A stretch of DNA of 64,000 nt from Occallatibacter riparius (GTDB taxonomy: Bacteria; Acidobacteriota; Terriglobia; Terriglobales; Acidobacteriaceae): positions 434,001 through 498,000 of the forward strand of contig NZ_CP093313.1 in assembly GCF_025264625.1 (NCBI RefSeq), in the 5' to 3' direction. The notes below the pieces were generated by a model. It did not search any database and was not told the DNA's origin. It worked only from the letters and a program-made list of their open reading frames with translations. A program made the position numbers and the translations under genes. Positions 13,378-37,560 of this stretch are shown here, piece after piece. The first letter of the stretch is position 1, and each line of letters opens with the position of its first letter.

Positions 13378-13926
13378 ATGGCTGGACGCCCGCGCAAGCC
13401 GACGAACCTCCTGGAGATCACAGGCGCTCTCCGGAAGAATCCGTCCAGGGCACGCGCGCGCCAGGGAGAACCTCAGCCTGCCCTCGGCCTGGGCGAGCCG
13501 CCGGTGCGGTGGCAGTCTCATCCTGCCGCGGCTCAGGCCTACGAGTTGTTCGCCCAGGACAAGAGCACCAACGAAGTCGCCGCGCAGCTCGGCATCTCCT
13601 GGGACGAGGCCCGTGCGATCCGTGAGAACCAGGCGCAGGCTGCCGACAATGCCAAGCTCTGCGAGCTCTGGCGCGAGCTTTGTGAGATGGCGGACTGGCT
13701 CACGAAGGCTGATCGCTGGACCGCTGAGCAGATCTGCGAGCTCAAGCTGCTCCAGGTCAAGCGCACGATCAAGTCCGCCGATCGCAAGGAACTCAACAGC
13801 CTCTGCAACAAGTGCGGCCTCGATCCTTCAGGCCGCTCTAAGGTCAACACGACTCCCGCGGATGCGAAGGCCGCCGCGACTGCCGATCCTCGCGACGTCT
13901 ACCTGCGCAAAAAACTGAGGGCGTAA
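13378..13926 (+). CDS. terS: Terminase small subunit (P27-like)
   Basis: 182 residues. The N-terminus MAGRPRKPTNLLEITGALRK is typical of P27-family small terminase subunits, and the C-terminal ELKLLQVKRTIKSADRKELN with a short tail fits the family. In the middle, STNEVAAQLGISWDEARAIR resembles an extra helix-turn-helix. TerS recognises the packaging site and recruits TerL. It ends one base before the TTG start of terL. Confidence 0.85.
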   Translation: MAGRPRKPTNLLEITGALRKNPSRARARQGEPQPALGLGEPPVRWQSHPAAAQAYELFAQDKSTNEVAAQLGISWDEARAIRENQAQAADNAKLCELWRELCEMADWLTKADRWTAEQICELKLLQVKRTIKSADRKELNSLCNKCGLDPSGRSKVNTTPADAKAAATADPRDVYLRKKLRA

Positions 13927-13927
13927 C

Positions 13928-15616: not shown

Positions 15617-16972
15617 ATGTTCGAAGGAATCAAAGGCGCCGTCAAGGATCTCATCGTCCGCATGGGGCAGGAGGAGCAGCCGCTCTCGCTGTTCTCTGAG
15701 GCCAAGGCCGCGGCGTTCTCTTTCGATACGGTCTCCGCCGGCTGGTATGCGCGCAACGGCTACTACGGCATATACTCCGCGCTCTCCGGAGGCCTGCCCG
15801 CCTGGTCCGGCGAGCCTGTCTCCACTGAGACGGCGATGGGTCTCAGCACCGTCTGGGCCTGCAACAAGGTCATCTCCGAGTCGATCGGCTTTCTCGCGCT
15901 CAACATGATGCGCCAGGTGGGACAGGAAAAGCAGCCCGCTGTCGGCCATCCCACCTACAACGCGATGAAGAATGCTCCCAGTCCGGAGATGACGTCGCAG
16001 AATTTCACTGAGCTGCTCAGCTCGCATTGCGTCCTGCAGGGTAACGGCTTTGCGAAAATCGTGCGGCGCTCCGGAACCGGCACGGCGATGGAGTTCTATC
16101 CCATCCAGCCGCAGATGGTGTTTCCCGATCGCGAAAAGACCGGCCAGAAGCGCCTGGTCTACGTAGTCAAGGAGAACAATCAGCCGGACCAGACCTACAC
16201 TGTCCAGCGCGACAAGCCGCAGGACATCCTGCACATCCGCGGCCTCGGCTGGGACGGTATGCGCGGTTACAGCGTCATCACCATGGCGCGGCAGTCGCTG
16301 GGTACCGCGATCGCGCAGGAACGCAACGTTGCCAACTTCTATGCGAAGGGCGGCCGAGTTCCATACGCGCTAAAGCATCCGTCGAAGTTCAAGGACGACA
16401 ATGATGCGGAGCGCTTCAGCGCTAACTGGCTCAAGGCCTATTCGGATCCGCACAAACCGCCAATTCTTGAGAGCGGCCTAGAGTATGTCAAGCTCGGCCT
16501 CACGGCGGCCGACTCGCAGCTCATCGAATCGCGCGAGTTCACCATTCCCGAAATCTGCCGCTGGTTCAGCGTGTTTCCCACCCTGGTGGGCGATCTCTCG
16601 CACGCTACGTTCAGCAATATCGAGTCTCTCGCCGAGCAGTTTGTACGCTTCACCCTCATGACCTGGCTCACTCGTTGGGAGCAGGAAATGTGGCGCTGCG
16701 TACTGACGCCCGAGGAGAAGGGGCAGGGCTACTTTTTCCGCCATGACTTAAGTGCCCTGCTCCGCGCCGACTTCCAAACGCGCATGGCCGGATATGCGCA
16801 GATGCTTCAGATGGGCAAGAACTCCATCAACGAAGTTCGCGCGATGGAAGGCGAAAACCCCATCGATGGCGGCGACGAGCACTACGTCCAGGTCAACCTT
16901 GCGCCCGTGCAGAACATGCAGGGCGCCAACGCGCCGGCCGTGCGCATCCGCGTCGGCAGCGACAAAAAGTAG
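15617..16972 (+). CDS. Phage portal protein (HK97 type)
   Basis: 451 residues, start one base after the terL stop codon. Has the usual landmarks of HK97-type portals: MGLSTVWACNKVISESIGFL (~residue 75), then PSPEMTSQNFTELLSSHCVLQGNGFA (~115, shown in part), HIRGLGWDGMRGYSVI (~205), and FPTLVGDLSHATFSNIE (~320). Forms the dodecameric channel at the capsid vertex through which DNA is packaged and ejected. Operon with protease and capsid. Confidence 0.93.
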   Translation: MFEGIKGAVKDLIVRMGQEEQPLSLFSEAKAAAFSFDTVSAGWYARNGYYGIYSALSGGLPAWSGEPVSTETAMGLSTVWACNKVISESIGFLALNMMRQVGQEKQPAVGHPTYNAMKNAPSPEMTSQNFTELLSSHCVLQGNGFAKIVRRSGTGTAMEFYPIQPQMVFPDREKTGQKRLVYVVKENNQPDQTYTVQRDKPQDILHIRGLGWDGMRGYSVITMARQSLGTAIAQERNVANFYAKGGRVPYALKHPSKFKDDNDAERFSANWLKAYSDPHKPPILESGLEYVKLGLTAADSQLIESREFTIPEICRWFSVFPTLVGDLSHATFSNIESLAEQFVRFTLMTWLTRWEQEMWRCVLTPEEKGQGYFFRHDLSALLRADFQTRMAGYAQMLQMGKNSINEVRAMEGENPIDGGDEHYVQVNLAPVQNMQGANAPAVRIRVGSDKK

Positions 16973-16984
16973 CGAGGAGTGAAC

Positions 16985-17986
16985 ATGAAGAACAAGCGCC
17001 GTGAAATGCGGTTGTCCATCAAGAGCGTGTCTGAGGACGGCACGTTTGAGGGGATGCTCTCGCCTTACAACAACGTCGACGACGGCGGGGATGTGGTCGA
17101 GCCCGGCGCGTTTACCAAGACGCTCCAGGAGAACGGCAGCACCGTGCCCATGCTCTGGCAGCACAAGGCGGATTGCCCGATCGGCGAGCTCGAGCTGAAG
17201 GATACCGCCGACGGCCTGGCCTGCAGCGGGAAGCTCTTGCTTGAGATCCCCGAAGCGAAGAAAGCCTATCTGCTGATGAAAGCGAAGATCGTCAAGGGGC
17301 TGTCCATCGGCTACGACGCCATCAAGGCGCAGGTTGTCGACGGCGTACGCCATCTCAAAGAGATCCGCCTCTGGGAAGGTTCCGTCGTCACGTTCCCCAT
17401 GAACACGCTCGCCGGCGTCACCGATGTGAAGGCGCAGCGCGAGGAGAAAGGCGACTTCAACGAAGAGCTGCACGAGCAGCAAATGCTTGATGCCTGGTAC
17501 CAGATTCCTTCTGCATTGCGTAGCGCGCTTTATAGTGCGGTGTGGCAATCGGGAGCCAAGCGCGCCGATATCATCGCCGCGAGTGAAACCGCGATCGATC
17601 AGTTCCGCGCCGCCTACATGGAATTCCTGCCGCAGTATCTCGACGTGATCGCGGAGCTCTACGGTATGGATACAAAGGCCTGGGCCGGCCGTCGTGAAAC
17701 CAAGGATGGCCGCAAGCTCTCCGCTGCCACCAAGGGCACGCTGAGCGAGTGCCATGGCCACATGAAATCCGCATTCGATATTTTGGCCGCACTGCTGGAC
17801 GACGAAGCCGGCGAGGACGTCGACGACGACTCCGAGGATGCCACTTCCAAATCCGCAGCCGCGCGCCAGCACAAGTCCAAGCCGGAAGACGGGGCCCCCG
17901 GCGACAGGTCCAAGTCGCTGGGGTCGCAGGAACTCCACTTGGCGGCCGACTCCCTCGAGGCTATGAGGGCGCTCCTGCGGGCGTAA
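16985..17986 (+). CDS. Prohead protease with C-terminal extension
   Basis: 333 residues from ATG 16985 (GAGGAG upstream; a GTG at 16979 is less likely). Residues ~1-155 are the HK97-type S78 serine protease: FEGMLSPYNNVDDGGDVVEP, MLWQHKADCPIGELE with the catalytic His, and KGLSIGYDA with the Ser. The remaining ~175 residues are helical, end in an acidic low-complexity stretch (DDEAGEDVDDDSED) and probably act as the scaffolding domain, since no separate scaffold gene exists. The protease matures the capsid before DNA packaging. Confidence 0.9.
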   Translation: MKNKRREMRLSIKSVSEDGTFEGMLSPYNNVDDGGDVVEPGAFTKTLQENGSTVPMLWQHKADCPIGELELKDTADGLACSGKLLLEIPEAKKAYLLMKAKIVKGLSIGYDAIKAQVVDGVRHLKEIRLWEGSVVTFPMNTLAGVTDVKAQREEKGDFNEELHEQQMLDAWYQIPSALRSALYSAVWQSGAKRADIIAASETAIDQFRAAYMEFLPQYLDVIAELYGMDTKAWAGRRETKDGRKLSAATKGTLSECHGHMKSAFDILAALLDDEAGEDVDDDSEDATSKSAAARQHKSKPEDGAPGDRSKSLGSQELHLAADSLEAMRALLRA

Positions 17987-18031
17987 TCGCAGGTTTCGGG
18001 GTCCCCGGCGACAGGTCTACGTCGCTGGGGT
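17891..18031 (+). repeat. Two copies of a 34-bp stem-loop repeat
   Basis: Copies at 17891-17924 and 17998-18031 share about 31 of 34 bases. Each can fold as CCCCGGCGAC / GTCGCTGGGG with a short loop. The first is inside the 3' end of the protease gene (encoding PGDRSKSLGS); the second lies in the gap before the capsid gene. Similar GC-rich hairpin repeats are remembered as dispersed elements in acidobacterial genomes. Confidence 0.8.
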
Positions 18032-18076
18032 GAAGGTTCACAACTCCACAACCCAATTCAATCAGGAGGTTCCCAC

Positions 18077-19447
18077 GTGGAACTGAAGGATCAGTTGTCC
18101 GCTCTGCAGACGGAGCTGAAGAGCTACGTCGAAAAGGCCGCCGAAGAGAAGAAGAATTTCGGCACGATGCTCACTGAAACCAAAGAGTCTGTCGAGAAGC
18201 TGCAGAAGCAGATCGACGCCGTCGATATCAAGCTTGCCGAGAAGCACCAGGCCGGCGCGCCTGAACTCTCGCTCGAGGAAGAGCTCAAGCAGAACGACGA
18301 CGTCGCCCGCATCATCAAGAACCGCTCTGGCCGTGTTTCGTTCACGGTCAAATCGAACCGCTTCTTCGATCGCAAAACCACCATCACCTCCGCCGCGGTG
18401 GGCGCTTCCACCTCCGGCGTGCTCACCATCGATCGCATCTCCGGAATCACGGCAGAAGCGCGCCAGGGCCTGCGCGTGCGCGATCTGTTCCTGGCGCGTC
18501 CCACCAGCCTGCAGCTCGTCGACTTCGTCAAGGTGACGTCGCCGCCGTCGTACACCATCAGCATGACCGGCGACACAACCAATGGAAGCAAGGCCATCGC
18601 CAACACTTCCATCAGCACTTCGGGCCTGAAGGTCGGTCAGCCGATCTCCGGCACGGGCATCGCGGCCGGATCTGTGATCGCCAGCATCACCGGCGCCAAC
18701 GCCATCACTGTTTCGAAGAATGCTACCGCCACCGCAACTGGCGTCGCACTCTCCGTCACGGCTGGCGCGGGCAGCGTGACGGCAGAAGGCAACGCCATCA
18801 ACGAGAGCGCCGTGACGTTCGCGTCTGCCTCGGAGAAGGTGAAGACGATCGCGGCCTTCATTCCCGCTACCAAGCAAATCCTCGACGACTTCGCGGAGCT
18901 GGCCGGCTACATCAACACGTCGCTGCCCTACTACGTGAACCTCGAAGAGGAGCTGCAGCTCCTGTCCGGCGATGGAACGGGCGAAAACCTGCACGGGTAC
19001 ATCCCCCAGGCGCAGGCCTATGACACCTCGCTCAACGTCGCCGGCGACAACAAGATCGACCAGCTCGGCCACGCCATCAGCCAGATCGCGCGGTCGAAGG
19101 AACTGACGCCCACCTTCATCGTCCTCAATGAGATGGATTGGTGGGCGATCCGCCTCACCAAGGACTCCTACGGCCGCTATATCCTCGGCGATCCGCAGAC
19201 CGCGGTGCGTCCGTCGATCTGGGGCCTCGACGTGGTTCCCACGACCTCGATCCCGCAGAATCAGTTCCTCGTCGGCACCGGTGCGCCGCCGGCAGCCGAG
19301 ATCCGCGACCGCATGGATATGCAGGTCGAGATCTCGACCGAGCACGCGGACTTCTTCCAGAAGAACCTGGTCGCGATCCGTGCGGAGAAGCGTGTCGCCA
19401 ACGTGGTGAAGCGCCCCAACGCCTTCGTGCAGGGCCAGTTCAGCTAA
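18077..19447 (+). CDS. Major capsid protein with inserted beta domain
   Basis: 456 residues from GTG 18077 with a strong AGGAGGT seven bases upstream. The N-terminal ~75 residues are a coiled-coil delta region (AALQ-type heptads, KESVEKLQKQIDAVDIKLAE), normally removed by the protease. HK97-fold landmarks follow: LRVRDLFLARPTSLQLVDFV, SEKVKTIAAFIPATKQILDD, YYVNLEEELQLLSGDGTGEN, and a C-terminal FFQKNLVAIRAEKRVANVV. Residues ~155-228 are an insertion (GLKVGQPISGTGIAAGSVIA then ITVSKNATATATG) that looks like a small beta-sandwich, probably exposed on the capsid surface. Confidence 0.93.
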   Translation: MELKDQLSALQTELKSYVEKAAEEKKNFGTMLTETKESVEKLQKQIDAVDIKLAEKHQAGAPELSLEEELKQNDDVARIIKNRSGRVSFTVKSNRFFDRKTTITSAAVGASTSGVLTIDRISGITAEARQGLRVRDLFLARPTSLQLVDFVKVTSPPSYTISMTGDTTNGSKAIANTSISTSGLKVGQPISGTGIAAGSVIASITGANAITVSKNATATATGVALSVTAGAGSVTAEGNAINESAVTFASASEKVKTIAAFIPATKQILDDFAELAGYINTSLPYYVNLEEELQLLSGDGTGENLHGYIPQAQAYDTSLNVAGDNKIDQLGHAISQIARSKELTPTFIVLNEMDWWAIRLTKDSYGRYILGDPQTAVRPSIWGLDVVPTTSIPQNQFLVGTGAPPAAEIRDRMDMQVEISTEHADFFQKNLVAIRAEKRVANVVKRPNAFVQGQFS

Positions 19448-21594: not shown

Positions 21595-21999
21595 ATGACC
21601 AAGCTTCGCAGGTATCTTTTCGTTGCAATGCTCGCCGTCCTGGCGCCTCTGGGCGCGATCGCGGCCGACGTTTGGCATGAGGGGTATATTGAATACCCTC
21701 ATACTCTCGCGGCGGCCGTGCACGGCGTGGTTCCGGAGGGCACGCGTATCACGCTTGACGACGGCACGGCGATCGAGCTTGCAACTCTCGATCCTGGCGA
21801 TGTGTTTCAGAAGCTCATCGCCTATTGGAGCAAAGAACGCACGGACTACCGCGCGGCACCGCCCAATGTGGATAAGTTCCTCTTCAAGGTGCGAACGGGC
21901 AAGCCGGCGGCGAATGGTGGCCGCTATGTCGAGATTCGCTATTCGGCAAACGACTGGTACGGCCGTTCCTGGAAAGGTGTAACGCACGCCATCAAGTGA
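21595..21999 (+). CDS. Secreted moron protein 1
   Basis: 134 residues with GGGGGA upstream. A Sec signal peptide (residues 1-23, LRRYLFVAMLAVLAPLGAIAA) is followed by a small soluble domain (DVWHEGYIEYPHTLAAAVHG, FLFKVRTGKPAANGGRYVEIRY). It interrupts the otherwise invariant tail tube/chaperone order and has its own promoter-like box and terminator, the structure of a moron expressed in the lysogen. Function unknown; it may alter the host envelope or phage sensitivity. Confidence 0.75.
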   Translation: MTKLRRYLFVAMLAVLAPLGAIAADVWHEGYIEYPHTLAAAVHGVVPEGTRITLDDGTAIELATLDPGDVFQKLIAYWSKERTDYRAAPPNVDKFLFKVRTGKPAANGGRYVEIRYSANDWYGRSWKGVTHAIK

Positions 22000-22796: not shown

Positions 22797-23216
22797 ATGA
22801 AACGCACGTGGATACTATGCAGCCTTCTGGGCCTCGTAGTCATCGGTTACGGAGTTGTGAGGTATGTCCATCACCGCCAATGGAGCCAGGCGCAGGCTGT
22901 GGCGCAGGTGGCCTTTCAGAAGGCGTGGCTACATAAGGATGATGACGATAGGGTATTTTCCCCGTACAAAAACGCACTTTTCGATGCCCGCGAGGCGGCC
23001 GAGGATATTCCTGCATGGGGCGAGACGGATCGGATAAGCGCGACGAAGTTTAGTTCTTGCGTTTCGATTCTCAACATCTACCGGAGCGATTCAAAGATCA
23101 TCGCGCTTCGGGTATCGGACAATCAACCTGCCGACGATGTGCGTGTCGAAGGGATGAAGATGGCAACCGAGCTCGATCGCTGCGTGGGGCGCTATCCGTT
23201 CCATCCCGGCGACTAG
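22797..23216 (+). CDS. Membrane-anchored moron protein 2
   Basis: 139 residues. A positively charged N-terminus and one hydrophobic span (residues ~5-24, WILCSLLGLVVIGYGVV) form a signal anchor; the rest is a soluble domain with two Cys residues (KFSSCVSILNIYRSD, ATELDRCVGRYPFH). Own -10 box and terminator. It sits between the chaperones and the gp10-like gene, where no such gene is normally found. Likely a prophage-expressed envelope protein; function unknown. Confidence 0.75.
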   Translation: MKRTWILCSLLGLVVIGYGVVRYVHHRQWSQAQAVAQVAFQKAWLHKDDDDRVFSPYKNALFDAREAAEDIPAWGETDRISATKFSSCVSILNIYRSDSKIIALRVSDNQPADDVRVEGMKMATELDRCVGRYPFHPGD

Positions 23217-23771: not shown

Positions 23772-26351
23772 ATGGCGTCAACGGGAATCGGTTCGGTCCG
23801 CGCGTTCTTTGAGTCGGACAACACGGCGTTCGATCGCTCTGTCGAGGCGTCGGCATCGCAGCTCAAGGCCGCGGCTGTGGCTGCCGAGCTCGCCGGCGAC
23901 AAGATTACAGAAGCGGGCGGCAAAATCGATCGCGCTGCGGCCATGCAGGAGCGCGCTGCTGAGCGTGCCCGTCAGGCCTGGCAGCGGGAATTGCTTGCGC
24001 AGGAGCGAGCCGCCGAGAAAGAGGCTGAGGTTGCGCGTGCCCGCGAGATGGCAGCGCTCAAGGCTGACATCCTGGCGCGGTCGCTCGCCGGCCAGGAGAA
24101 CGCGCAGAAGATGGTGAACGCCGCTACCGAGCATGGCATTCCGGCCATGTCTGCCGCATCGGCCGCGGTGCGCACGCTCGAAGGCAATATCACGCATAAC
24201 ATCCGCGCTGCCGAGCGCTTCGTATCAACTACGCTCGGACTCGCGCCACTGCTCGAAAAAGCCTTTCCGGTTGTTGGAGCGGTCGCGCTGGGTGCGGCTG
24301 TCGTGGGCGTAGTCGGGGAGCTAGTTGATTTCGGCAATGAGGCTCAGGATCTCGCTAACACCCTTGGCACCGGATGGCTGGATGGCGCGATTCTCAAGCT
24401 CGAAGGCTTCGGGAAAAAGGTCAAAGAGGAAGAGGACAACATAAAGCAGTTCCAGCAACAGATCGATCAGAGCATCGCCGCGGAAAAAGAGAGTTCGTTT
24501 CAGACCACCGGGGAACGCGAGGGGCCTGCGGCTGAGGCGACCGCGCGGGCACAGGAGATGCTTCGTAAGGTCCAAGGACTTGAGTCAATGATGCCGGTGC
24601 TGCGTGAGAAGCTCCGCGTCGCCGAATATTTCGCGACCGCGCCCGACGCTCAGCGGTTCCAGTTCGACCCTTATGGTCAATCCGTCAACCGAAACAACGC
24701 CGATCCGGTGTTTCAGGCCAACGCTCGCATTGCGGAGCAATACAAGATCGATACCGGGATTCCGGCGATTGCCAAGGAGCAGGCCAAGGAGGCCCGCGCG
24801 CAGCTTGTGGCCACCCAGGCGGAAATCGACAAGATGCGGCAGGAGATGACGAAGGTCGTCACAAAGACCAGCGAGCCTGGATCGCGCTCGCCCGTCAAGG
24901 CTACGGATGAGGAGACCAGGCTGCTCGAACAGAGCTGGCAGCGGCAATTGCTGGCGCTCAAGGCGCATCACTACACGACGCTGCAGGAAGAGGCTGCATT
25001 CTGGCAGGCCCGCGCCAATCTGTCCAAGGGAGCCGCCGCGCAGTATGCGCAGGACGAAGCGAACAAGGCGCTCGCACAGATCCTCAATCGCACGCACGAG
25101 GCTTTCCAGAAGTTTCGCGAAGAGGAGGCTCGGCGGCTCCGTGAGCAGCCCCGCATGCCTGACTCGATGACCCGGGCGGCCGGCTTCACGATCTCCTCGG
25201 GCGGCACCTTTGGGTTGTTCTCCGAGCAGGGCCAGGCGCTGCGCGAAGCTACAACCAAGGCTGCCGAGGCGCAGGCCTCTCTAAATGCACAGTGGCAAGC
25301 GGCGGTGGATAAGGTCAACCTGCTCCACGGCCAGATCTCGCCGCTCGATGCGTCCATGAACGCGCAGGCTGCGCACGCTGAGCAGTATCGCTTGCAGCTC
25401 GAGGCGCTAAATGAGCAGCTGGAGGAAATGCAGAAGGGCGAAGCCCTGGCCGCGACACTGGGCGATACGGGCTACGCCGCGAAAGAAGTCCAGCTGCGCA
25501 CGCAGATCGCGGAGCTGGAGAATAAGGCGCGCATCTCCGCTCTCGAGGATCAGCAGCAGGTCCTCAGTGACACATGGAAAGGCGCCATCGACAGCGTGTG
25601 GGATGAGCTGATCGCAAAGGCGCAGAACACACAGCAGCAAATCGCGCAGATTGCCGGACGCTTCATGGACGGCATCAATTCTGAAGCCGCCAAGGGATTG
25701 ACTGGCGGCAAGACCGATTTCGGCGGTGTCTTTCGCGGAGCCAGCCAGAGCCTGATGAAGACGGGCCTGGAGAAGCTGGAGGGGTCGTTTCTTCACGGGT
25801 TGGGACTCGGCTCCAAAAAGGTCGACGGATCGGCCGGAAGCCCATTTCATGTGATTGTGGACAACAACGGTAATATCGTCGGCGGGGCTGGCATTCCGGC
25901 TGACATTGCAAAGCTTTTCGGCGGCCAGGCGCAGCCGTCCGTCTCAGGCCCGGCTGGCGCGGTAGCTGATGTTGCCGGGCATGGAATTATGGGCTGGGCT
26001 GGGAAGCTTTTCGGCGGTCGCTTGTCTGGCCTTGGCGGCATCTTCAGCCACCTGCTTGGTTTCGCCGGTGGCGGCGAGATCCCCGCTAACCTTCCGGTCA
26101 TGGTCGGTGAAAATGGCCCGGAGATCCTGCCTCCGCTGAGCTCGCCTCGCCCGATCTTGTCGAATCGCGACAGCATGAAATGGGGTGCGGGCGCTGGCGG
26201 CGGCGTCTATATCGAACACGTTGACGCCAGGGGCACGGATCCGGCCTTGACCAGGTCGAACATCGAACAGGGATTCCAGCGCGTGCATGCGTCGGCCGCC
26301 GCCAGCGCTGCGCACGCCATGGCCGATCGGCAGCGGCGCGTGCCGCGGTAA
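23772..26351 (+). CDS. Tape measure protein
   Basis: 859 residues, starting one base after the preceding stop. Long Ala/Gln/Glu-rich coiled-coil stretches (ERAAERARQAWQRELLAQER) flank a hydrophobic segment at ~165-185 (FPVVGAVALGAAVVGVVGEL). The C-terminus has the usual FAGGGEIPANLPVMVGENGPE and PEILPPLSS motifs. It fixes tail length and probably helps DNA cross the envelope. Its length predicts a tail of roughly 130 nm by the usual 0.15 nm per residue. Confidence 0.93.
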   Translation: MASTGIGSVRAFFESDNTAFDRSVEASASQLKAAAVAAELAGDKITEAGGKIDRAAAMQERAAERARQAWQRELLAQERAAEKEAEVARAREMAALKADILARSLAGQENAQKMVNAATEHGIPAMSAASAAVRTLEGNITHNIRAAERFVSTTLGLAPLLEKAFPVVGAVALGAAVVGVVGELVDFGNEAQDLANTLGTGWLDGAILKLEGFGKKVKEEEDNIKQFQQQIDQSIAAEKESSFQTTGEREGPAAEATARAQEMLRKVQGLESMMPVLREKLRVAEYFATAPDAQRFQFDPYGQSVNRNNADPVFQANARIAEQYKIDTGIPAIAKEQAKEARAQLVATQAEIDKMRQEMTKVVTKTSEPGSRSPVKATDEETRLLEQSWQRQLLALKAHHYTTLQEEAAFWQARANLSKGAAAQYAQDEANKALAQILNRTHEAFQKFREEEARRLREQPRMPDSMTRAAGFTISSGGTFGLFSEQGQALREATTKAAEAQASLNAQWQAAVDKVNLLHGQISPLDASMNAQAAHAEQYRLQLEALNEQLEEMQKGEALAATLGDTGYAAKEVQLRTQIAELENKARISALEDQQQVLSDTWKGAIDSVWDELIAKAQNTQQQIAQIAGRFMDGINSEAAKGLTGGKTDFGGVFRGASQSLMKTGLEKLEGSFLHGLGLGSKKVDGSAGSPFHVIVDNNGNIVGGAGIPADIAKLFGGQAQPSVSGPAGAVADVAGHGIMGWAGKLFGGRLSGLGGIFSHLLGFAGGGEIPANLPVMVGENGPEILPPLSSPRPILSNRDSMKWGAGAGGGVYIEHVDARGTDPALTRSNIEQGFQRVHASAAASAAHAMADRQRRVPR

Positions 26352-26405
26352 ACAACGCAACGCAGTCAACGTCAACCGCTCAAAAAAACTCCGGAGGAAA
26401 TTTCC

Positions 26406-29336
26406 ATGACCTGTCTTTTCCGGCTGCGCGCCTGCGCGGCGATCGCGGTTGTGTGCCTGCTCGCGTGCTTTGCCGTCCAGGCGCGCGCGCAGTACACCAC
26501 GGTGACCACGACCTATCTGGGCGGCAGCCTGTCGCTTGTGGGCAGCGGCACGCTCTATCTGCAGCCCGTCTCCGGATGTAATGCCGGCGTCGGCGCCGCG
26601 CGCGTGGGCGCTTCGAATGGCCAGATCTCCGGACTGCCCTTCCAGGTTCCTGTGGTGAACGGCGCATCCTCGAAAGCGGTTCCGGACGCGCTGCAGACCA
26701 CGCCCAACATCGCCTACGCCATTACGGCTCTCGACGACACCGGCACCGTGATTCTGGGCGCGGGCCTGCAGTCGGACGGGATCCACGTGCGGCCGGGCGG
26801 TCCGTATGGCTGCGTCCAGCCGACCGGCACTACCTGGAGCCTCGATACGTACGTTCCGAGCTCGCCCGTGAGTATCCTGCCCTCGACAATCTTCGACGCG
26901 CCTAGCACCACGACAGGTGCGCCGGGCAGCTCCGCCGCCGTCACGCTTTCGATGCTGACTGGCGGGCAGTATCACTTCGCCTTCACCGTGCCGCAAGGCC
27001 TCCAGGGCCCGCAGGGCATACCCGGCGGTTCTCTCAGCTATCCCGGCGTATCGTCGGATGGAGCAAAAGGGCTGAGTCTCGGTGCTGTCACCACTCAGGC
27101 GGCATCTACTACGTGGACTACTGCGCAGATCCGCGGCGACTCTCTGTTCTGTGGCGGCCAGGGCACGCTCGCGAATCCCTGGCATTGCGGCCCTACCACC
27201 GGACATGGACTGGCTGCGGCTCTCGCGGCGCTTCCCTCCATGGCCGGGAAATCCTTCACCGTTCTTGCTATCCCTGGTCAGACTTCGAACCAGACGCTCG
27301 CGGTCGCAAACGCCTTTGCCGGCACTTCTAAACAGCAAGCGACCATCACCGGCGGCTCGCTGACCTCGGGCACGCCGGTCACTATCACTTTCACATCGGG
27401 CTATGAGCCGACTTACAACGCATTCTTTACCGATACAAACTCCGTTCCGATCACTATCTGTGGTGTCTCAGGAACGGCGAGCGAGGGCACCGGTCACGTC
27501 GCAACATTCACGCCCTCCGGATCTGCAGCATGCGCGGGCACTCAGCAATGGACCACGACTGATCCGTCAGGCCCGCAGATCGTTCTCACCGGGTACAACG
27601 ATCACGGCTCTGTATCGCAAGTCCAGGCGAATGACGCCACTCTCGCTGCGAAGTTCAACACTCTCGGGCTGCCGTTCCTGTTCCTGTCTATTCCCTATGG
27701 AGAGGGCGCCGGCCCTGGGAATTATCCGGGCGCAAACTCGTTTTGGTCGATCAACAATTCGCGAGCGGCGCTCTACGGAGCCTCCTATGTAGACGCCAAC
27801 TACGCGCTGGCGCAGGGATATAACGCGGGGAATGCAGCGGATGTGAGCGATCACAACGCCGGTGTGGTTCCGACCTACACGGAGCGCGCTGTCAGCATGC
27901 AGGGCACGCTCAATGGCGCTCTCGGCACCACGGGGTGCCCGGCGGTCGTCATGACGTCCTCTTCAATCTTCAGCCTCGAAGTAAACGGCATTATGAATAT
28001 GGCTGGCGGCGAGCAGATTCTCGTCACTGGTGTTTCGGGAACTTATCCAAATATCACGGTAACAAGCTGCCTTCGCGCTCAAAACGGTACGACCGCCGCC
28101 TCGTATTCATCGGGTGCGGCCTTCACTGCGACCGACTGGCTGCACTTCAACGATTATGGCCAGAGCCTGATCGCGGCGGCCGTCGCACCCCTGATAGGCA
28201 ACGTGGCTTCGCCGAATGTTACGCTCCCTTCCAATAATGGCGGGGCGATTGCGCAGAGCGGCGGCCCAGGTGTGTGCGGGTTCGGAATCAATGGGGATCT
28301 CGATTGCCAATCGAACCTTGTCTCGTCTTCTGGCAAGCAACTCGGCACGGTCTCCCGGCCCTGGGGGGCGATGTTCTCGCTCTACGCGGGCATTCGCGGC
28401 GGCGCTCCCGCCACCTACACTCTTTACTCGAATATCGGCCTGATCGAATACAGCAATCCGCAGTTTGTGTTCGATGCTGTCGGCCCGACGCCCGCCGTCA
28501 ATGGGCAGTACCTCTTCCGTGTGATGACTGCCGGCAACGCAAGCCACACCAATTTTTTGAGCAGCGATGCCAGCGTCAACGCTATCTTCGGCGGAGGAGT
28601 GACCGCGAAATCCTACGTCTTCAACAATACGCCTCCGTCCGCGCTAACCTCTGCCGGGTCCTTGGGTTATAGCTCTGGCGGCTTTTTGGATCTCTACGGG
28701 CCGGACGCTTCCACCTATCCGACCTTCAGCTTGCGGCTTCAGGAAGCAGGAGGCGCGGGTGTAATCACCGCGATGACCATTGACAACGCGGGGAACGCCA
28801 TCCACCCAGGTGGACTTCAGTCGAAGTGGTTCACCCTGCAAAATACGTCGTCCCCGTCCTACTCCTCCCTGACTACGGCCGCCGTGTTCTCCCTCACCTC
28901 AACCCAGTTGGTGATGGACTCGATTGGCCCCAATACTTCCACCATCGGCAGCCTCCTGATCCGAGGGATTGCGGCTCTGAATACGAGCAACAAGATATTC
29001 CTGATTGGCGATAACACTGGGCTTGTCTCGACGCCAAATGGGCTATCCACGCCTAAGTTCTATTCGACGGCCGCGCAGACAACGACGAGCTGCGGAACTT
29101 CCGGTTCCATCATCTCCAGCGAGCCGTTCCTCGGTTCCTCGCACAAGACCGTTGTGATCCATCTCGCTGCCTGCAACGGTGCGGCTACTTACACCTTCCC
29201 AACCGCGTTTGCGAACACTCCCGGGATCTTCGCTTCCAGCAGCACCGCCGCCAGCGTGGTCACTTCCTTGTCTGCCAGCGCCGTGACAATCACGGGCACT
29301 ACTTCCACCGGCACCATAGTTCTCACCGACTACTAA
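26406..29336 (+). CDS. Secreted-type SGNH hydrolase tail/fibre protein
   Basis: 976 residues, GGAGG upstream. Residues 1-29 form a Sec signal peptide (AVVCLLACFAVQARAQ). Collagen-like GLQGPQGIPGG lies at ~197. An SGNH/GDSL esterase domain follows: RGDSLF with Ser246, AIPGQTS, GYNDHG with Asn398, PFLFLSIP, and DWLHFNDYG with Asp577/His580. The C-terminal ~350 residues are Ser/Thr/Gly-rich beta repeats ending VTITGTTSTGTIVLTDY, like receptor-binding fibres. It probably deacylates surface polysaccharide during adsorption. A signal peptide on a virion protein is odd and could mean export from the lysogen. Confidence 0.8.
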   Translation: MTCLFRLRACAAIAVVCLLACFAVQARAQYTTVTTTYLGGSLSLVGSGTLYLQPVSGCNAGVGAARVGASNGQISGLPFQVPVVNGASSKAVPDALQTTPNIAYAITALDDTGTVILGAGLQSDGIHVRPGGPYGCVQPTGTTWSLDTYVPSSPVSILPSTIFDAPSTTTGAPGSSAAVTLSMLTGGQYHFAFTVPQGLQGPQGIPGGSLSYPGVSSDGAKGLSLGAVTTQAASTTWTTAQIRGDSLFCGGQGTLANPWHCGPTTGHGLAAALAALPSMAGKSFTVLAIPGQTSNQTLAVANAFAGTSKQQATITGGSLTSGTPVTITFTSGYEPTYNAFFTDTNSVPITICGVSGTASEGTGHVATFTPSGSAACAGTQQWTTTDPSGPQIVLTGYNDHGSVSQVQANDATLAAKFNTLGLPFLFLSIPYGEGAGPGNYPGANSFWSINNSRAALYGASYVDANYALAQGYNAGNAADVSDHNAGVVPTYTERAVSMQGTLNGALGTTGCPAVVMTSSSIFSLEVNGIMNMAGGEQILVTGVSGTYPNITVTSCLRAQNGTTAASYSSGAAFTATDWLHFNDYGQSLIAAAVAPLIGNVASPNVTLPSNNGGAIAQSGGPGVCGFGINGDLDCQSNLVSSSGKQLGTVSRPWGAMFSLYAGIRGGAPATYTLYSNIGLIEYSNPQFVFDAVGPTPAVNGQYLFRVMTAGNASHTNFLSSDASVNAIFGGGVTAKSYVFNNTPPSALTSAGSLGYSSGGFLDLYGPDASTYPTFSLRLQEAGGAGVITAMTIDNAGNAIHPGGLQSKWFTLQNTSSPSYSSLTTAAVFSLTSTQLVMDSIGPNTSTIGSLLIRGIAALNTSNKIFLIGDNTGLVSTPNGLSTPKFYSTAAQTTTSCGTSGSIISSEPFLGSSHKTVVIHLAACNGAATYTFPTAFANTPGIFASSSTAASVVTSLSASAVTITGTTSTGTIVLTDY

Positions 29337-29372: not shown

Positions 29373-29783
29373 ATGCAAGTGAGGCTCTTCGTCCTGTTTA
29401 TCGTCGTCGCTGTATCGCTCTTTGTGGGCGCGGCTCATGCGCAGGCCCAGGCTCCGATCGGGCGCCATATCGATTTCACCGCTAAGCTCCTGGACCTGAA
29501 CTCGCATCCGATCGCGTTAAGCGAAAAGGATCCGACTCAAGTCACGTTGAGCTATGTGTGCATCAACGCGCTGGAGACCCCCGTGGATGCGGATCGCGAA
29601 ATGGCTGGCGAACAGAAGTTCGCGATGGACCAGCTCGCCCGTAAGATCTACGCGCAAAAAGATGTGGTGCTGAGCGCGGAAGAGATAACGCTGCTTAAGA
29701 AGCGTGTCGGCATGCTCTATGGACCTCTCGTCGTTGGCGCGGCCTGGCGCATGCTCGACTCAGACGCTGCAGAGAAGAAATAG
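29373..29783 (+). CDS. Signal-peptide phage protein in tail module
   Basis: 136 residues, AGAGAGGAA upstream. Residues 1-26 are a Sec signal peptide (FVLFIVVAVSLFVGAAHAQA). The rest (IDFTAKLLDLNSHPI, TQVTLSYVCINALETP, GEQKFAMDQLARKIY, LKKRVGMLYGPLVVGAAWRML) resembles small phage proteins that I recall without signal peptides. It follows the SGNH gene by 36 bp, so the two are likely co-expressed and co-exported. Role unknown. Confidence 0.65.
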   Translation: MQVRLFVLFIVVAVSLFVGAAHAQAQAPIGRHIDFTAKLLDLNSHPIALSEKDPTQVTLSYVCINALETPVDADREMAGEQKFAMDQLARKIYAQKDVVLSAEEITLLKKRVGMLYGPLVVGAAWRMLDSDAAEKK

Positions 29784-29797
29784 CGCGCGGGAGAGCC

Positions 29798-30454
29798 ATG
29801 CTGATCACAGGTACTACCTTCAATGGCGCGAATGTCATCGCGCTGCCCTGCGACGTGGTGCCGCGTGTGACGGCGCCTTCGTCGATCGAGTGGGACGATC
29901 ACGAAGCGGTGTCCGCCAGCGTCTCGCCCTTCGACGCGTCCACGCAGACCTACGACTGGATGCAGTCCTGGTGGGAAGGCCAGGTCAGCTTTCCGCCCAT
30001 GGACCGCTGGTCGCACGATGCGTGGAAAGCCTTTCTGCGGGCCTGCCGCGGGCCGCTGAATGTCTTTATGCTCGGCGATCCTAAGGCGAAGCGTCCCAAG
30101 GGCGCCGCGGCCTTCAAGGCGGGCACTCCGGTAGTCAACGGCTCCGGGCAGACCGGCTACACGCTCAGTACGCGCGGCTGGACGGCAAGCATCAAGTCCA
30201 TGCTCCAGTTCCATGACTACATCCAGATCGGGAACCGGCTCTACTCCGTCATGGACGTAGTGGACGTGGCCAGCGATGGAACCGCGACGCTGCCCATCTG
30301 GCCGCCGCTGCGCGATCTGCCGGCGGACGGCGCGGCAATCATCACCCACAACTGCCGCGGCATGTTCCGCCTGGTCAACAACAGCGGCAACAAAGACTCA
30401 GTGAACGTGGGCAACTACGGCCTGAGCGGTTTCGCCATCCGGGAGGCCATCTAA
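29798..30454 (+). CDS. Distal tail protein, probable
   Basis: 218 residues. Starts MLITGTTFNGANVIALPCDV and continues with WDDHEAVSASVSPFDASTQ, YDWMQSWWEGQVSFPPM, typical of beta-rich distal tail components. Its place between tape measure and hub genes equals that of DUF2460 in gene transfer agents, though I cannot confirm the family. The next gene starts two bases after its stop. Confidence 0.65.
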   Translation: MLITGTTFNGANVIALPCDVVPRVTAPSSIEWDDHEAVSASVSPFDASTQTYDWMQSWWEGQVSFPPMDRWSHDAWKAFLRACRGPLNVFMLGDPKAKRPKGAAAFKAGTPVVNGSGQTGYTLSTRGWTASIKSMLQFHDYIQIGNRLYSVMDVVDVASDGTATLPIWPPLRDLPADGAAIITHNCRGMFRLVNNSGNKDSVNVGNYGLSGFAIREAI

Positions 30455-32771: not shown

Positions 32772-32977
32772 AAGACGACCTCACACCGCGGCAGGCGGAG
32801 ATTGTCGTCCTGCTCTGCAGGGGCTTCGAATACAAGGAAATCGCCGCCGAGCTGGGCATCTCGCACCAGGTCGTGAGGAATTACATGGCGAATGCTGTAC
32901 GGCGCAGCGGCGCGCGCACTGCAACGCAGCTGGCGGTGTGGGTCGCGCTGGCCCGCGAGCGCAACAAAAAGTCCTAA
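32759..32977 (+). CDS. LuxR-type HTH protein inside tail module
   Basis: 72 residues, start overlapping the previous gene by 13 bases. Nearly the whole protein is a GerE/LuxR HTH: LTPRQAEIVVLLCRGFEYKE, IAAELGISHQVVRNYMANAV, then RRSGARTATQLAVWVA. There is no receiver or sensor domain. A stand-alone LuxR-type regulator is unusual in a tail operon. It may control late genes or host genes. Confidence 0.85.
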   Translation: MADMKDDLTPRQAEIVVLLCRGFEYKEIAAELGISHQVVRNYMANAVRRSGARTATQLAVWVALARERNKKS

Positions 32978-32999
32978 CACTCTTCGGGAGCTTTTCTTC

Positions 33000-35936
33000 A
33001 TGGCAAAAGCAGTCACTGAAGTCGCGATCGGCGCGGCCGCGATCGGCGCATCGTTCATCATCCCCGGCTCGGGGATAGCGCTGCTCGGCATGACGCTTTC
33101 GCATGCGGCGGTCACGAGTGCGTTGGTCAGCATGGGCGCCTCGCAGATCATGGCTGGCCTGGCTGACGCTCTCCGCACCAACAAGAGCGGCATCGCCGTC
33201 GCTGTGACAACGCCGATTGGTCCCTGGGCCTATGGTTATGGACGGCAGAAGGTCGGCGGCGTCGAGATCTTCCGCGAGTCCAACAACAACACCGGCGTGA
33301 GCGGATCCACGTCGAACAACAAGCAGCTCCATCGGGTCTACGCGCTCTTCTGCCATCCCTCGAAGATCGGCTCCTTCCAGCTCCGCATCGATGGCAAGCA
33401 GGTGCTGCTCACTCCATCGGGCAGCGACTGGGTAAGCTTCTCCCCGACACAGGCCGTACGTAATATCACTTCCATTAGCCGCACCGCCGGCGTGGTCACC
33501 ATGCACCTCGATGGCGGGGGTATCATCGGCGCTGACGGCACCACGCTGCAGATCCGCAGCGCGCCGGATAACACCCTTAATGGAACATTCCTGGTCACGC
33601 AACCCAACCCTGCCGATGCGACGGTTCTCACCTATATCTGCGGCGGCCCTGACATCGCCTCCACGAGCGGAGGCAGCGCGCGCACCACGTTCTCCGATTA
33701 CAAGGACAAGATCCGCGTCTCGTTTCTCGACGGCAATCACACCTCGACGTTCCCTACGCTGCTCGCCGCGGGCACGTCCTGGAAGGCCTCTGACCTCTGC
33801 CTTGGCCATACGCTGGTCTACGTGCAGATGGGCTATGACGATGGCGTTTTTCCGAGCTCGATTCCCAATGTCTCCTTCGTGCTCGATGCGAAGAACGACA
33901 TCCTGGATCCGCGCACCGGCCTGCGCGGCTGGACCGACAATGCTGCCCTCTGCATCGCCGACATGATGTGCCTGCCCAAAAAGCGCGGCGGCTTCGGCAT
34001 GACCATCGGCACTGACATTCCCACTGCGCAGCTCATCGCCGCGGCCAACCTCTGCGATGAGACCGTGGCTCTCGCCGCCGGGGGTACGATCCGGCGCTAT
34101 CGCTGCAACACGTTCTTCCAGCTCTCCGACGCGCGCGGCACGGTGCTCAAGGACATGCTTTCGAGCTGCGCCGGCCGCGTGAGCTACCAGGGCGGCCAGT
34201 ATTCCATCTTTCCGGCCGGGTGGGTTACGCCCACGCTCGATCTCACCGATGCGGATCTCGCGGGTCCTATCCGCTTCCGGCCGCGCCTCAGCATCAGCGA
34301 CACCGCCAACGCGATCAAGGGCACCTACGTCTCGCCGGAGAACGCCTACCAGCTCGCGGACGTGCCCGCCTATGCGATGGACGCGAAGCACGGGTTCGTT
34401 AGCGATCCCTACCTCGCCGAGGATGGCGGCGAGCGCATCTACAAAGACGCGCACTTCCCGTGCACCGATGATTCGGCCACCGCGCAGCGCCTCGCGAAGA
34501 TCGCGCTCATGCGCCTGCGCAACGGCCAGGGCCGCATGACCCTGACCTGCAAGATGAGCTCCTATCGCGCCGTGGCCTGTGACGTAATCACGCTCACGCA
34601 TCCGCGCTACACCTATTTGCGCAAACCCTTCGAAGTGCTGGCCAGCCGCGTGGTTTTCAAGCAGATGAAGGGCGGCGCCGTCCGGCCGCATGTGGAGCTC
34701 GATGTTACCGAGACCGATTCATCGAGCTTCGATTGGAATGCCTCCACCGAGCAGCTCACCCCACAGGGCTACCAGCAGCCGCAGAACGTCGGCGTGCGCC
34801 TCTGCGCGCCTCCGGAGGATGTCACCGCATATTCCGGCCCAGGCGCGGTGATCGATGGCATCACGTATCCGTCCACGTTCACGACGGGCGCCGATGGCCG
34901 CGTGCAGAACTCGATCTATGTGCGCTGGCTCCAGCCCAACGATGCGAACGTGGTCTCCGGCGGCCATCTCGAGGTGCAGTGGCAGCCGCTGGCCGCGGTT
35001 ACCTGGTCAGGGTTGGCGAAGGTCGATCCGAGCAATGACCATATCTTCATCCCGAACGTCACCGACGGTGCGCAGTACAACATCCAGGTGCGGGCGGTGA
35101 ACTGCGCCGGCGTCCCTTCTGACTGGATTGCGGTTGGACCGATCACGGTGAGCAACGGCTACTCGGCGTCGGCCACTTCGGGGAGTCCCGTCGCACCTCC
35201 GGGAACGCTGAGCGCGCAGGGCCTGGCCGATGGCACTGCGAACATCACCGTGCTGCCCTTTACGCCTACCATCGGCACGCCGGCCTGCACGCCGTCTCCG
35301 ACCATCCTCACCGGCCTGAATCAATCGCAGCTCTACCACGTGTACTATGTCGACGCGACGTTCTCCGGCGGCACCATCACGCCGATCGCCACGCAGAATC
35401 CTGCGGACTATCTGAACAAGGTCGGCTATTTCCTGATCGGCGATATCGTCACGCCCAGCTACACGCCGCGCTACCAGCCTTCGACCTTCTCGGACCTGGG
35501 CAACTCGACAACGTCGAATCCCGTGGCCGCCTACGACAACGACGTGACCAGCGAGGCCATTGTCAGCTCCAACTGGTGGACGACAGGATCGCCCGGATCC
35601 TTTGTCGGCCATGTGAGCAGCGGCCAGTGCCAGTGGGCCGGCTTCCCATCCGTCAGCCCTGCAGGCGCGACCACGCTGCATGTGATCGCAAGCTTTGATG
35701 GCGGCGGGAGCTCCGGAACAACCATCTCTGGCAGCATCGATGTCAAGATCGGCGGCACGGTCACCAACCTCGTGAGCTTCAGTGCCGTGACGGCCGAAGC
35801 TGATTACACGATGACGATCCCGGCGGGCACCGATCTCAGCACCATCAGCGTGAGCGGATCCGCGACCGCCGGCGCCGGAACGCTCCCGGGCAGCGGCGGC
35901 TGCGCGCTGAAGGGGTTCGAAATATACATCCAGTAG
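33000..35936 (+). CDS. Tail tip attachment protein (gpJ-like)
   Basis: 978 residues from ATG 33000 (GGGAG upstream). An N-terminal hydrophobic segment (VAIGAAAIGASFIIPGSGIA) precedes hub-type domains (residues ~60-560), with landmarks LYKD/IYKDAHFPCTDD and YVSPENAYQLADVPAY. A fibronectin type III-like unit (~640-720, SIYVRWLQPNDANVVSGGHL) and C-terminal beta-rich receptor-binding region (~780-978) follow. Last and largest late gene, as for lambda J, it should make first contact with the host receptor. Confidence 0.88.
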   Translation: MAKAVTEVAIGAAAIGASFIIPGSGIALLGMTLSHAAVTSALVSMGASQIMAGLADALRTNKSGIAVAVTTPIGPWAYGYGRQKVGGVEIFRESNNNTGVSGSTSNNKQLHRVYALFCHPSKIGSFQLRIDGKQVLLTPSGSDWVSFSPTQAVRNITSISRTAGVVTMHLDGGGIIGADGTTLQIRSAPDNTLNGTFLVTQPNPADATVLTYICGGPDIASTSGGSARTTFSDYKDKIRVSFLDGNHTSTFPTLLAAGTSWKASDLCLGHTLVYVQMGYDDGVFPSSIPNVSFVLDAKNDILDPRTGLRGWTDNAALCIADMMCLPKKRGGFGMTIGTDIPTAQLIAAANLCDETVALAAGGTIRRYRCNTFFQLSDARGTVLKDMLSSCAGRVSYQGGQYSIFPAGWVTPTLDLTDADLAGPIRFRPRLSISDTANAIKGTYVSPENAYQLADVPAYAMDAKHGFVSDPYLAEDGGERIYKDAHFPCTDDSATAQRLAKIALMRLRNGQGRMTLTCKMSSYRAVACDVITLTHPRYTYLRKPFEVLASRVVFKQMKGGAVRPHVELDVTETDSSSFDWNASTEQLTPQGYQQPQNVGVRLCAPPEDVTAYSGPGAVIDGITYPSTFTTGADGRVQNSIYVRWLQPNDANVVSGGHLEVQWQPLAAVTWSGLAKVDPSNDHIFIPNVTDGAQYNIQVRAVNCAGVPSDWIAVGPITVSNGYSASATSGSPVAPPGTLSAQGLADGTANITVLPFTPTIGTPACTPSPTILTGLNQSQLYHVYYVDATFSGGTITPIATQNPADYLNKVGYFLIGDIVTPSYTPRYQPSTFSDLGNSTTSNPVAAYDNDVTSEAIVSSNWWTTGSPGSFVGHVSSGQCQWAGFPSVSPAGATTLHVIASFDGGGSSGTTISGSIDVKIGGTVTNLVSFSAVTAEADYTMTIPAGTDLSTISVSGSATAGAGTLPGSGGCALKGFEIYIQ

Positions 35937-36228: not shown

Positions 36229-37560
36229 ATGTCTACGATGGAGGAAACTCCAAAAATGAAACACACGCTGGGCCATGTGGAATGCCCGGCTTGTGCGCGG
36301 GCTCAACTGGTGCTTTATCGGGCTTTGTCTGGTGATCTTCTCTTCTCCGCCGCATTCGACATCTGGATCTCCCATCGCACTCTTGAGGCGGAAGGCCTCC
36401 GCATCGAGGGTGTTGAATACATCTCTCGCAAAACCGAGCGCGATTACCGCGTGTGCGCCAAGGCGCTGGGGAAGTACTTCCATAAATTGCGCTTGGATCA
36501 GATCGATGAGGCGCGGCTCTCGGCCTACCAGCAACTCCGGGCGACGAATCCCGTCGACCAGGTGAACGGGAACTGGTACTGCTGGCGCGGCGGTGTGCTG
36601 GCGGGTCACAGGAAGGCCGCGGACAACGAAGGCGGCTGGCGCGATGACTTCGACACGCTGGAAGCCGCTGAGGACTGGGCAAGGAATCACGGCGGCGGCT
36701 GCGAGTTTGTGCAGACCGTGTGGGCGCGCCGGGCGAGCGCCGGCTGTATTCGCAAAGAGATTGCCTTGCTGCAGAGAATCCTGCGCGACGCGGCGCTCTG
36801 GACCGAGGAGCGATCGAAGCGCTTTCTCAAAATCAAGTCGTCGGAGCCGGACGTCGAACGGGCGCTGAGCCGCGCCGAGCAGCATCGGCTTCTGCATGTG
36901 GCGTCGGGTCCGGCGAAACATCGCTTCATCTACCAGTACACCCTGGTCGCGCTGCAGACCACGGCGGGGCCGAACGAACTGCGGCAACTGCGCCTCGGAG
37001 ACCTGGTGCTCGAAGGGCGCGAGCCGTATATCCAGATCCCGCGCGCCGGCGCGAAAAACAAGTATCGCAAGCGCATTATTCCGCTGATCACCGAAGATGC
37101 GGTGTGGGCGATGGAAGGCCTCGTCGGGCGAGCTCGCGAGAGGGGCGCATGGTCACCGTCGCATTACCTGTTCCCGCTGCAGCTCTCGCGCACGCACTAC
37201 GATCCGAATCGGCCGATGAGCGAGTCGGGATTGAAAAAGCCGTTCGATGCGCTGCGCAAAGAGGCGCAGATGCCGGAGCTCCGGATCTATGACCTGCGCC
37301 ACACCGGCATCACGCGCATGGCGGAGGCCGGCGTTCCGCTGCCGGTGGCGATGAGCTTCGCGGGCCACATGACCGAGCAGATGCAGCGGCGCTACACCGC
37401 AATCTGTATGGCTGCGCAGCGTCAATGGGGTTCGGCGGTGTGGGGCGCGCCTACGCGTCCGAGCGGCGAGGAGACGGCGCAGATCCGCGCGGCCTTCGAC
37501 GTTCCGCGCAAGCCGGTAGCCGCGGTCGGTATCCCGACCAGAGGCGTGCGCCACGCCTGA
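36229..37560 (+). CDS. int: Tyrosine site-specific integrase, divergent
   Basis: 443 residues. The N-terminal ~200 residues are a core-binding domain with a zinc-knuckle-like CPAC near the start and a SAM-like region (ERDYRVCAKALGKYFHKLRL, RLSAYQQLRA). The catalytic domain has NKYRKRIIPL (Lys), YDLRHT (Arg357 but Tyr354 in place of the usual His), GHMTEQMQRRYTAI (His380, nucleophile Tyr389). The usual T-G-x-R box reads TTAGPNELRQL, without the expected Arg at ~247. Position next to a tRNA-Thr fragment shows that it drives integration into that gene. Confidence 0.9.
   Translation: MSTMEETPKMKHTLGHVECPACARAQLVLYRALSGDLLFSAAFDIWISHRTLEAEGLRIEGVEYISRKTERDYRVCAKALGKYFHKLRLDQIDEARLSAYQQLRATNPVDQVNGNWYCWRGGVLAGHRKAADNEGGWRDDFDTLEAAEDWARNHGGGCEFVQTVWARRASAGCIRKEIALLQRILRDAALWTEERSKRFLKIKSSEPDVERALSRAEQHRLLHVASGPAKHRFIYQYTLVALQTTAGPNELRQLRLGDLVLEGREPYIQIPRAGAKNKYRKRIIPLITEDAVWAMEGLVGRARERGAWSPSHYLFPLQLSRTHYDPNRPMSESGLKKPFDALRKEAQMPELRIYDLRHTGITRMAEAGVPLPVAMSFAGHMTEQMQRRYTAICMAAQRQWGSAVWGAPTRPSGEETAQIRAAFDVPRKPVAAVGIPTRGVRHA

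Follow-up and report, generated by a model that had tools for sequence, protein, structure and literature searches.

Why should a gene in the tail module of a siphovirus prophage encode a protein that begins with a Sec signal peptide? Tailed-phage virions are held to be completed in the reducing cytoplasm, and tail fibres are usually made there without a signal peptide (a usual rather than a formally defining property). The question is raised by a 64,000-nucleotide stretch of the Occallatibacter riparius (Acidobacteriaceae) genome (contig NZ_CP093313.1, positions 434,001 to 498,000; hereafter the window), in which siphovirus prophage genes surround a fibre gene at 26406-29336 (+) whose 976-residue product carries both a signal peptide and an SGNH hydrolase domain. 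We find that export of this fibre and of its relatives is well supported by sequence. On balance we lean towards the view that the window protein is a Sec-exported tail-fibre (receptor-binding) protein with an SGNH part, folded in the periplasm and docking on virions at lysis; that the virion is the destination of the exported fibres is something we infer.

The open reading frame of the fibre gene runs from an ATG at 26406 to a stop codon ending at 29336, as in the initial annotation, and a Shine-Dalgarno (SD)-like GGAGGA (26393-26398, +) lies 7 bases ahead of the ATG. Residues 1-28 (26406-26489, +), MTCLFRLRACAAIAVVCLLACFAVQARA, are followed by QYTT and form a predicted Sec signal peptide with a positive n-region, an h-region whose best 9-residue Kyte-Doolittle mean is 3.23, and small residues at -3 and -1 of the predicted cleavage site ARA/QYTT. 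All signal peptides in the window, in the protein family described below and in the Tunturi phages were called by a written rule of this n-h-c form and not by SignalP. The clear Sec signal peptide that the initial annotation had pointed out is borne out by this rule and recurs across the family.

No PHROGs or Pfam family was found for the whole protein at E 0.01 and, used as a query, it retrieved no PDB sequence, phage record, or relative in viral or genome contigs; a second query searched in the genome contigs was likewise without relatives. The family came to light because the N-terminal domain (N-domain; residues 29-166, 26490-26903, +) was split off as a query. This query found relatives in viral contigs. 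Of 200 Acidobacteriaceae genomes, 23 gave a match, no fewer than three of them by chance (L033, L035 and L036, judged by eye). The match in genome G412 (L004) was likewise judged by eye to be chance. An alignment-based search, which scored the 11 best candidates of each genome, placed the N-domain in at least 38 of 398 genomes, and the profile built here found 144 frames, 76 of them non-identical. The window domain matches this profile at hmmsearch E 1.4e-28, the profile seed containing the window protein itself. The N-domain is common to all family members, and the length and the rest of the protein vary.

A signal peptide lies just ahead of the N-domain in 57 of the 70 members with a callable N-terminus, so that the window protein and most of its relatives depart from the usual signal-peptide-free state of tail fibres. 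The start codon with an SD-like run (at least 4) is at the signal peptide in 40 of these 57 and at the domain in one; among the 13 members without a signal peptide, nine have an SD-backed start at the domain. Since 57 of the 70 tree rows have a signal peptide, 40 of them with an SD-backed start at it, the signal peptide of the window protein is judged not to be chance. Members of the other kind include two matches in Granulicella tundricola MP5ACTX9 (Acidobacteriaceae; G306), to window residues 29-185 and 69-136, both directly 3' of tape-measure genes. The second N-domain gene of this genome, in its second prophage and after a tape-measure gene, is broken into frames (L007 13476-14518). In a tree of the N-domain (70 rows, quick method, unrooted, with many open forks), the 13 members without a signal peptide comprise a group of 11 (support 83) and a pair, and two changes explain all rows. 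Loss of the signal peptide in two groups is consistent with this unrooted tree, and is the simpler reading because most of the tree carries one. The initial annotation had named homologues that start past the hydrophobic segment as evidence against its reading; such homologues exist, but they are these 13 in two groups, and 57 of 70 keep the signal peptide. Eight phage regions (L013, L050, L055, L063, L070, L109, L117 and L134) have two or more N-domain genes, several of them in tandem, which suggests duplication and diversification of fibres.

Disulphide-bonded proteins tend toward even cysteine numbers, and the cysteine content of the family provides evidence of folding in the periplasm that is separate from the signal peptide. 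The idea arose on 21 even members, and the prediction was fixed before further loci were fetched. The mature cysteine count is even in 49 of 53 signal-peptide members, in which it spans 1 to 26: in 20 of 20 of the discovery set, in 29 of 33 from loci fetched after the prediction, and in 31 of 34 when one member is taken per 60% identity cluster. The window protein has 12 (C58, 136, 249, 261, 352, 376, 511, 555, 624, 634, 896 and 923). The odd-count exceptions are L069 (9), the first copy of L109 (11), L126 (7) and L127 (1, a 78-aa fragment); L121 has 13 cysteines from the domain start and 14 from the predicted cleavage site. The count left out 11 of the 76 frames, five without a domain start and six running off the contig end, and one more without a callable start; L056, one of the 21 members behind the idea, is among the frames left out. 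As a control, the remaining cysteine-containing structural proteins of these phages, trimmed at the first Met rather than at verified starts, have an even count in 49 of 107 (23 of 43 with at least four cysteines; family versus control, Fisher p 2e-9). The family thus bears the paired-cysteine signature expected of a Sec-exported protein in an oxidising compartment. Members without a signal peptide have an even count in 6 of 11 (Fisher p 0.005 against those with one), and beyond the first 150 residues the counts are even in 42 of 50 with a signal peptide versus 3 of 11 without.

The position of the gene connects the family to phage tails. As the initial annotation had stated, the gene lies between the tape-measure and distal tail genes. 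The gene directly upstream (23772-26351, +) matches the tail tape-measure family phrog_6747 (E 5e-4), reaches 22.5 bits against Pfam PF09718 (Tape_meas_lam_C), just below the cut-off of 23, has homologues in the related loci, and ends 54 bases before the fibre gene start. The distal tail protein (Dit) gene on the 3' side (29798-30454, +) matches phrog_1302 (E 2e-35). The fibre gene thus sits in the tail module beside tail-tip genes, as expected for a tail fibre. Across the family, at least one phage marker is found in 55 of 70 loci, corresponding to 48 of 63 non-redundant places with a tail or head marker beside the domain. Three arrangements recur. The first is that of the window, in the order tape measure, fibre, Dit and J; in the second the fibre follows a J-like protein and precedes a muramidase (for example L053, by PHROGs); the third is seen in L049. 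The window-type slot is held by genes with a signal peptide in the window, L013, L047, L051, L058, L106 and L130, and by genes without one in L006, L009, L043, L045 and L135.

The predicted fold of the N-domain points in the same direction. An AlphaFold2 model made from 23 rows is a beta-sandwich with a mean pLDDT (predicted local distance difference test) of 72.6 over 187 residues and about 86 in the first 120. VIA-align matches it best to 8kec_b, residues 1-104 of a tail fibre of cyanophage A-1(L) (Z 9.7, root-mean-square deviation 2.3, 94 aligned, 14% identity), a chain that is probably the short fibre gp33, judging from its length. The accessible part of PMC10966104 describes both kinds of A-1(L) tail fibre as anchored to the baseplate by their N-terminal parts. 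The next matches are the tail tips of Bxb1 (9d93_Lb, Z 7.7) and Ur-lambda (9e7m_Ta, Z 7.2), although a Z below 8 possibly reflects just a common arrangement. Foldseek with the same model returned nothing at E 0.001; three BFVD entries had probabilities of 0.99-1.00 at E 0.017-0.03, among them RcapNL gp25, whose sequence similarity to the N-domain model is undetectable.

Beyond the N-domain, the collagen-like stretch noted in the initial annotation is present at residues 198-207 (26997-27026, +), but amounts merely to three Gly-X-Y triplets. The catalytic residues claimed for the SGNH domain (residues 226-605, 27081-28220, +) are all in place: GDS at 244-246 (S246), GYND at 396-399 (N398) and DWLH at 577-580 (D577 and H580). 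The blocks GDS, GxN and DxxH align in five of five proteins (the window protein and four others), the Pfam Lipase_GDSL match (E 0.0021, 18.7 bits) is below its curated cut-off of 23.6, and a single-sequence AlphaFold2 model of the region has a pLDDT of 32.5. Acidobacteriaceae SGNH hydrolases that appear to be exported (L143, L147, L145 and L002) are like the window domain in these blocks (32-35% identity), but unlike the window protein show no phage N-domain in the frames read. L143 and L147 have a cysteine at the position of C555, and another lies about two positions off C511. The window domain may be a deacetylase of a surface glycan. The C-terminal region (28221-29333, +) has no family match and is taken as fibre from its position.

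Signal peptides are found also among the tail proteins of plaque-forming phages. Tunturi phages 1-5 were isolated on Tunturiibacter (Acidobacteriaceae) and give clear plaques (PMC11924767, accessible part). We checked the head, tail and some lysis coding sequences of Tunturi_2, 3 and 4. In Tunturi_2, a podovirus, 5 of 22 coding sequences checked (107 features) have a signal peptide, namely gp12, gp13 (annotated 'tail fiber protein'), gp14 ('pectin lyase'), gp16 and gp17 ('virion structural protein'), with 20, 10, 20, 1 and 34 mature cysteines, respectively. In Tunturi_4, a siphovirus, there are 2 of 27 (115 features), gp113 ('tail protein', 8 cysteines) and gp114 ('virion structural protein', 20 cysteines). 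The six large proteins (gp12, gp13, gp14 and gp17; gp113 and gp114) all have even counts. The small gp16 (149 aa), like a small signal-peptide protein that adjoins the fibre in the window (29373-29783), has one cysteine. The five Tunturi_2 genes are clustered among podovirus tail genes (L140 9802-22744), a feature unremarked in the accessible part of PMC11924767, in the main text of which neither 'signal peptide' nor 'mass spectrometry' occurs. Tunturi_2 gp17 and Tunturi_4 gp114 have a common segment (53% identity), and since one phage is a podovirus and the other a siphovirus, signal-peptide tail proteins of this kind appear to move between morphotypes. Six-frame translations of the Tunturi_2, 3 and 4 genomes contain no match to the N-domain profile, and tblastn queries likewise gave none, so that the trait is not confined to a single protein family.

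Sequence statistics establish that the fibre has a signal peptide, that this recurs across the family, that the cysteines bear the paired signature and that the gene lies in the tail module. What we infer from this is a sequence of events in which removal of the signal peptide, each single disulphide, expression at a late stage, attachment to virions at lysis and the substrate are all putative. The fibre would be made together with the late tail proteins, pass the inner membrane unfolded via Sec with removal of the signal peptide, and fold in the periplasm with the formation of as many as six disulphides. Virions would meanwhile be put together in the cytoplasm without the fibre. When the lysis proteins open the envelope, these virions would meet the finished fibres, whose N-terminal domain would dock on the tail tip. 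Once a virion meets a new cell, the SGNH domain may strip ester groups (e.g. O-acetyl) off the surface glycan whilst the C-terminus binds. The virion is preferred as the working place because relatives that lack a signal peptide occupy this very slot, between the tape-measure gene and Dit. Whether a fibre reaches the virion from the cytoplasm or from the periplasm at lysis, this slot makes sense, whereas an enzyme meant for the outside of the living lysogen would fail without export; the slot orthologues therefore speak for the virion, as an argument and not a proof. Extended to Acidobacteriaceae tailed phages generally, temperate and plaque-forming, the proposal of heads and tails from the cytoplasm with Sec-secreted, disulphide-bonded fibres clipped on at lysis is one that we hold to be evenly poised.

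Several observations weigh against this interpretation. Presence of these proteins on virions is presumed from sequence, 15 of the 63 non-redundant places have no phage marker, and the N-domain fold is a common beta-sandwich, a transthyretin-like domain also reaching Z 7.2. The orthologues without a signal peptide indicate that some phages can do without it. Tunturi_3 has a signal peptide in none of 26 coding sequences checked (of 147). Recombinase or integrase genes are reported for Tunturi 3-5 (PMC11924767, accessible part), and the Tunturi_4 record has an annotated integrase and repressors. Tunturi_4 may thus be temperate, and Tunturi_2 is the cleaner lytic case, on which the argument from lytic phages mainly leans. 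The cysteine parity also has its limits. Other frames of the same loci with a called signal peptide are even in 13 of 21 (7 of 10 with at least four cysteines), and those without one in 26 of 48 (21 of 31 with at least four); a cruder split gives 98 of 166 for frames without a called signal peptide, and 78 of 109 with at least four cysteines. The baseline of even counts in cysteine-rich frames may therefore be above one half. Because the cysteine-rich controls exceed half, and because the other signal-peptide frames are less even than the family, parity is a softer mark of export than its p-value suggests. The contrast with members lacking a signal peptide is weak and not independent, as these members are few and fall into two tree groups. 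Despite the raised baseline, the 49 of 53 even counts of the family, over a range of 1 to 26, still stand out.

Of the alternatives, the one that survives best is an exported protein that never joins the virion and acts instead in the periplasm, on the surface of the producer or free in the medium, like lambda Lom. Its role could be that of an esterase that removes glycan from cells or from debris, or it could mask receptors in lysogens. We regard this possibility as a serious one, though distinctly less probable. It would account for the signal peptide and cysteine signature, and it gains from the apparently exported state of SGNH relatives (by eye, L143 has a signal peptide and L147 a lipobox) and from the precedent of Lom, which is exported from a gene in the lambda tail region (PMC12309495, accessible part). 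Set against this, the conserved part of the family is the N-domain, whose fold is that of the N-termini by which fibres are anchored to virions; without a signal peptide, the slot orthologues would have no function as purely exported enzymes; the plaque-forming Tunturi_2 carries a cluster of such genes; and in the gap between the tape-measure and fibre genes a scan limited to the sigma-70 consensus found no promoter-like or terminator-like site on the + strand. The initial annotation had offered two options, and gene position, N-domain fold, slot orthologues and plaque-forming phages favour the second, that virion assembly involves an exported part. The first, receptor masking by the lysogen, fits less well in the light of the same promoter scan, and exclusive use on the lysogen surface is less likely.

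A second alternative keeps the protein in the cytoplasm, as an ordinary fibre that keeps its hydrophobic N-terminus, uncleaved, in the tail tip, where it might be a helix that inserts into a membrane or promotes oligomerisation. The place of the gene and the fold of the N-domain suit this explanation as well, and family members that have no hydrophobic segment exist. We consider it improbable, however, as a cytoplasmic role predicts neither the n-h-c form with small -1 and -3 residues, which is kept though the sequence varies, nor the even cysteine counts that accompany it. That the signal peptide is an artefact, arising from a wrong start codon or from a host signal peptide that became fused to the gene recently and by chance, is very hard to credit: homologues with a downstream start exist, but the SD sequence fits the upstream ATG, the DNA of the signal peptide occurs only once in its own genome, and signal peptides recur throughout the tree.

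The remainder of the prophage is that of a siphovirus. The terminase, portal, head protease and major head protein genes lie at 13378-19447 (+), with PHROGs matches to terminase subunits, protease and head protein; the portal gene (15617-16972, +) was named not by PHROGs but by its place and by homologues beside TerL in locus L043. Two small proteins of the head-tail region (21595-21999 and 22797-23216, +) have an N-terminal signal-peptide-like or membrane segment, and no PHROGs family was found for either. The fibre gene is directly followed by a gene (29373-29783, +) whose 136-aa product likewise begins with a strong signal peptide, MQVRLFVLFIVVAVSLFVGAAHA/QAQAP, by the written rule, a correction to the initial annotation. 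No family was found for it, and phmmer among the loci available to that search matched only the same gene; it may serve the fibre as a partner or as a chaperone in the periplasm. Further downstream are the central tail fibre J-like protein (32892-35936, +; phrog_5616 E 1.6e-77, phrog_31 E 6e-40), at the start of which the written rule calls no signal peptide, and the prophage integrase (36229-37560, +; phrog_1, E 8.7e-28). A 1113-aa protein encoded 3' of the integrase (39377-42718, +) is matched by the iterated profile of the L049 J3 protein, and family searches with it gave nothing clear.

Many phages of Acidobacteriaceae thus seem to send fibres to the periplasm. Should these fibres end on virions, the last step of assembly would take place beyond the cytoplasm, a virion could acquire the fibres of a different phage that shares its host cell, and fibres with disulphide bonds might be well suited to particles that stay stable in soil. 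A lack of signal peptides has served as an argument that proteins come from phages (Benler et al., PMC6199706, accessible part), and annotation pipelines that file exported proteins as morons call for caution. Among the papers listed in searches of the open literature, which takes in no preprints and few subscription papers, none was seen to describe tail fibres of tailed phages that are exported. Tunturi_2 and Tunturi_4 make the idea directly testable.

The window fibre can be compared with several known systems. The A-1(L) tail fibre and the Bxb1 and Ur-lambda tail-tip proteins have an N-terminal beta-sandwich like its N-domain; a signal peptide is not mentioned for the A-1(L) fibre in the accessible part of PMC10966104, whereas in the window protein one precedes the domain and paired cysteines follow it. 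Lom resembles the window fibre in being an exported product of the tail region, its gene lying between the tail-spike and tail-fibre genes, and is a beta-barrel expressed in lysogens (PMC12309495, accessible part). The window fibre differs from it in its fibre-type N-domain, its enzyme domain and its tail-slot orthologues without a signal peptide. Phage endolysins with a signal peptide are already known, and for the lytic Bacteroides phages phiBrb01 and phiBrb02 two and one signal-peptide proteins are reported, with no implication that they are tail fibres (PMC5723332, accessible part). Tunturi_2 gp12-gp17 and Tunturi_4 gp113-gp114 lie outside the N-domain family, unlike the window fibre, but resemble it in that the large tail or structural proteins among them carry signal peptides and have even cysteine counts; the hosts of these phages and of the window phage belong to one bacterial family.

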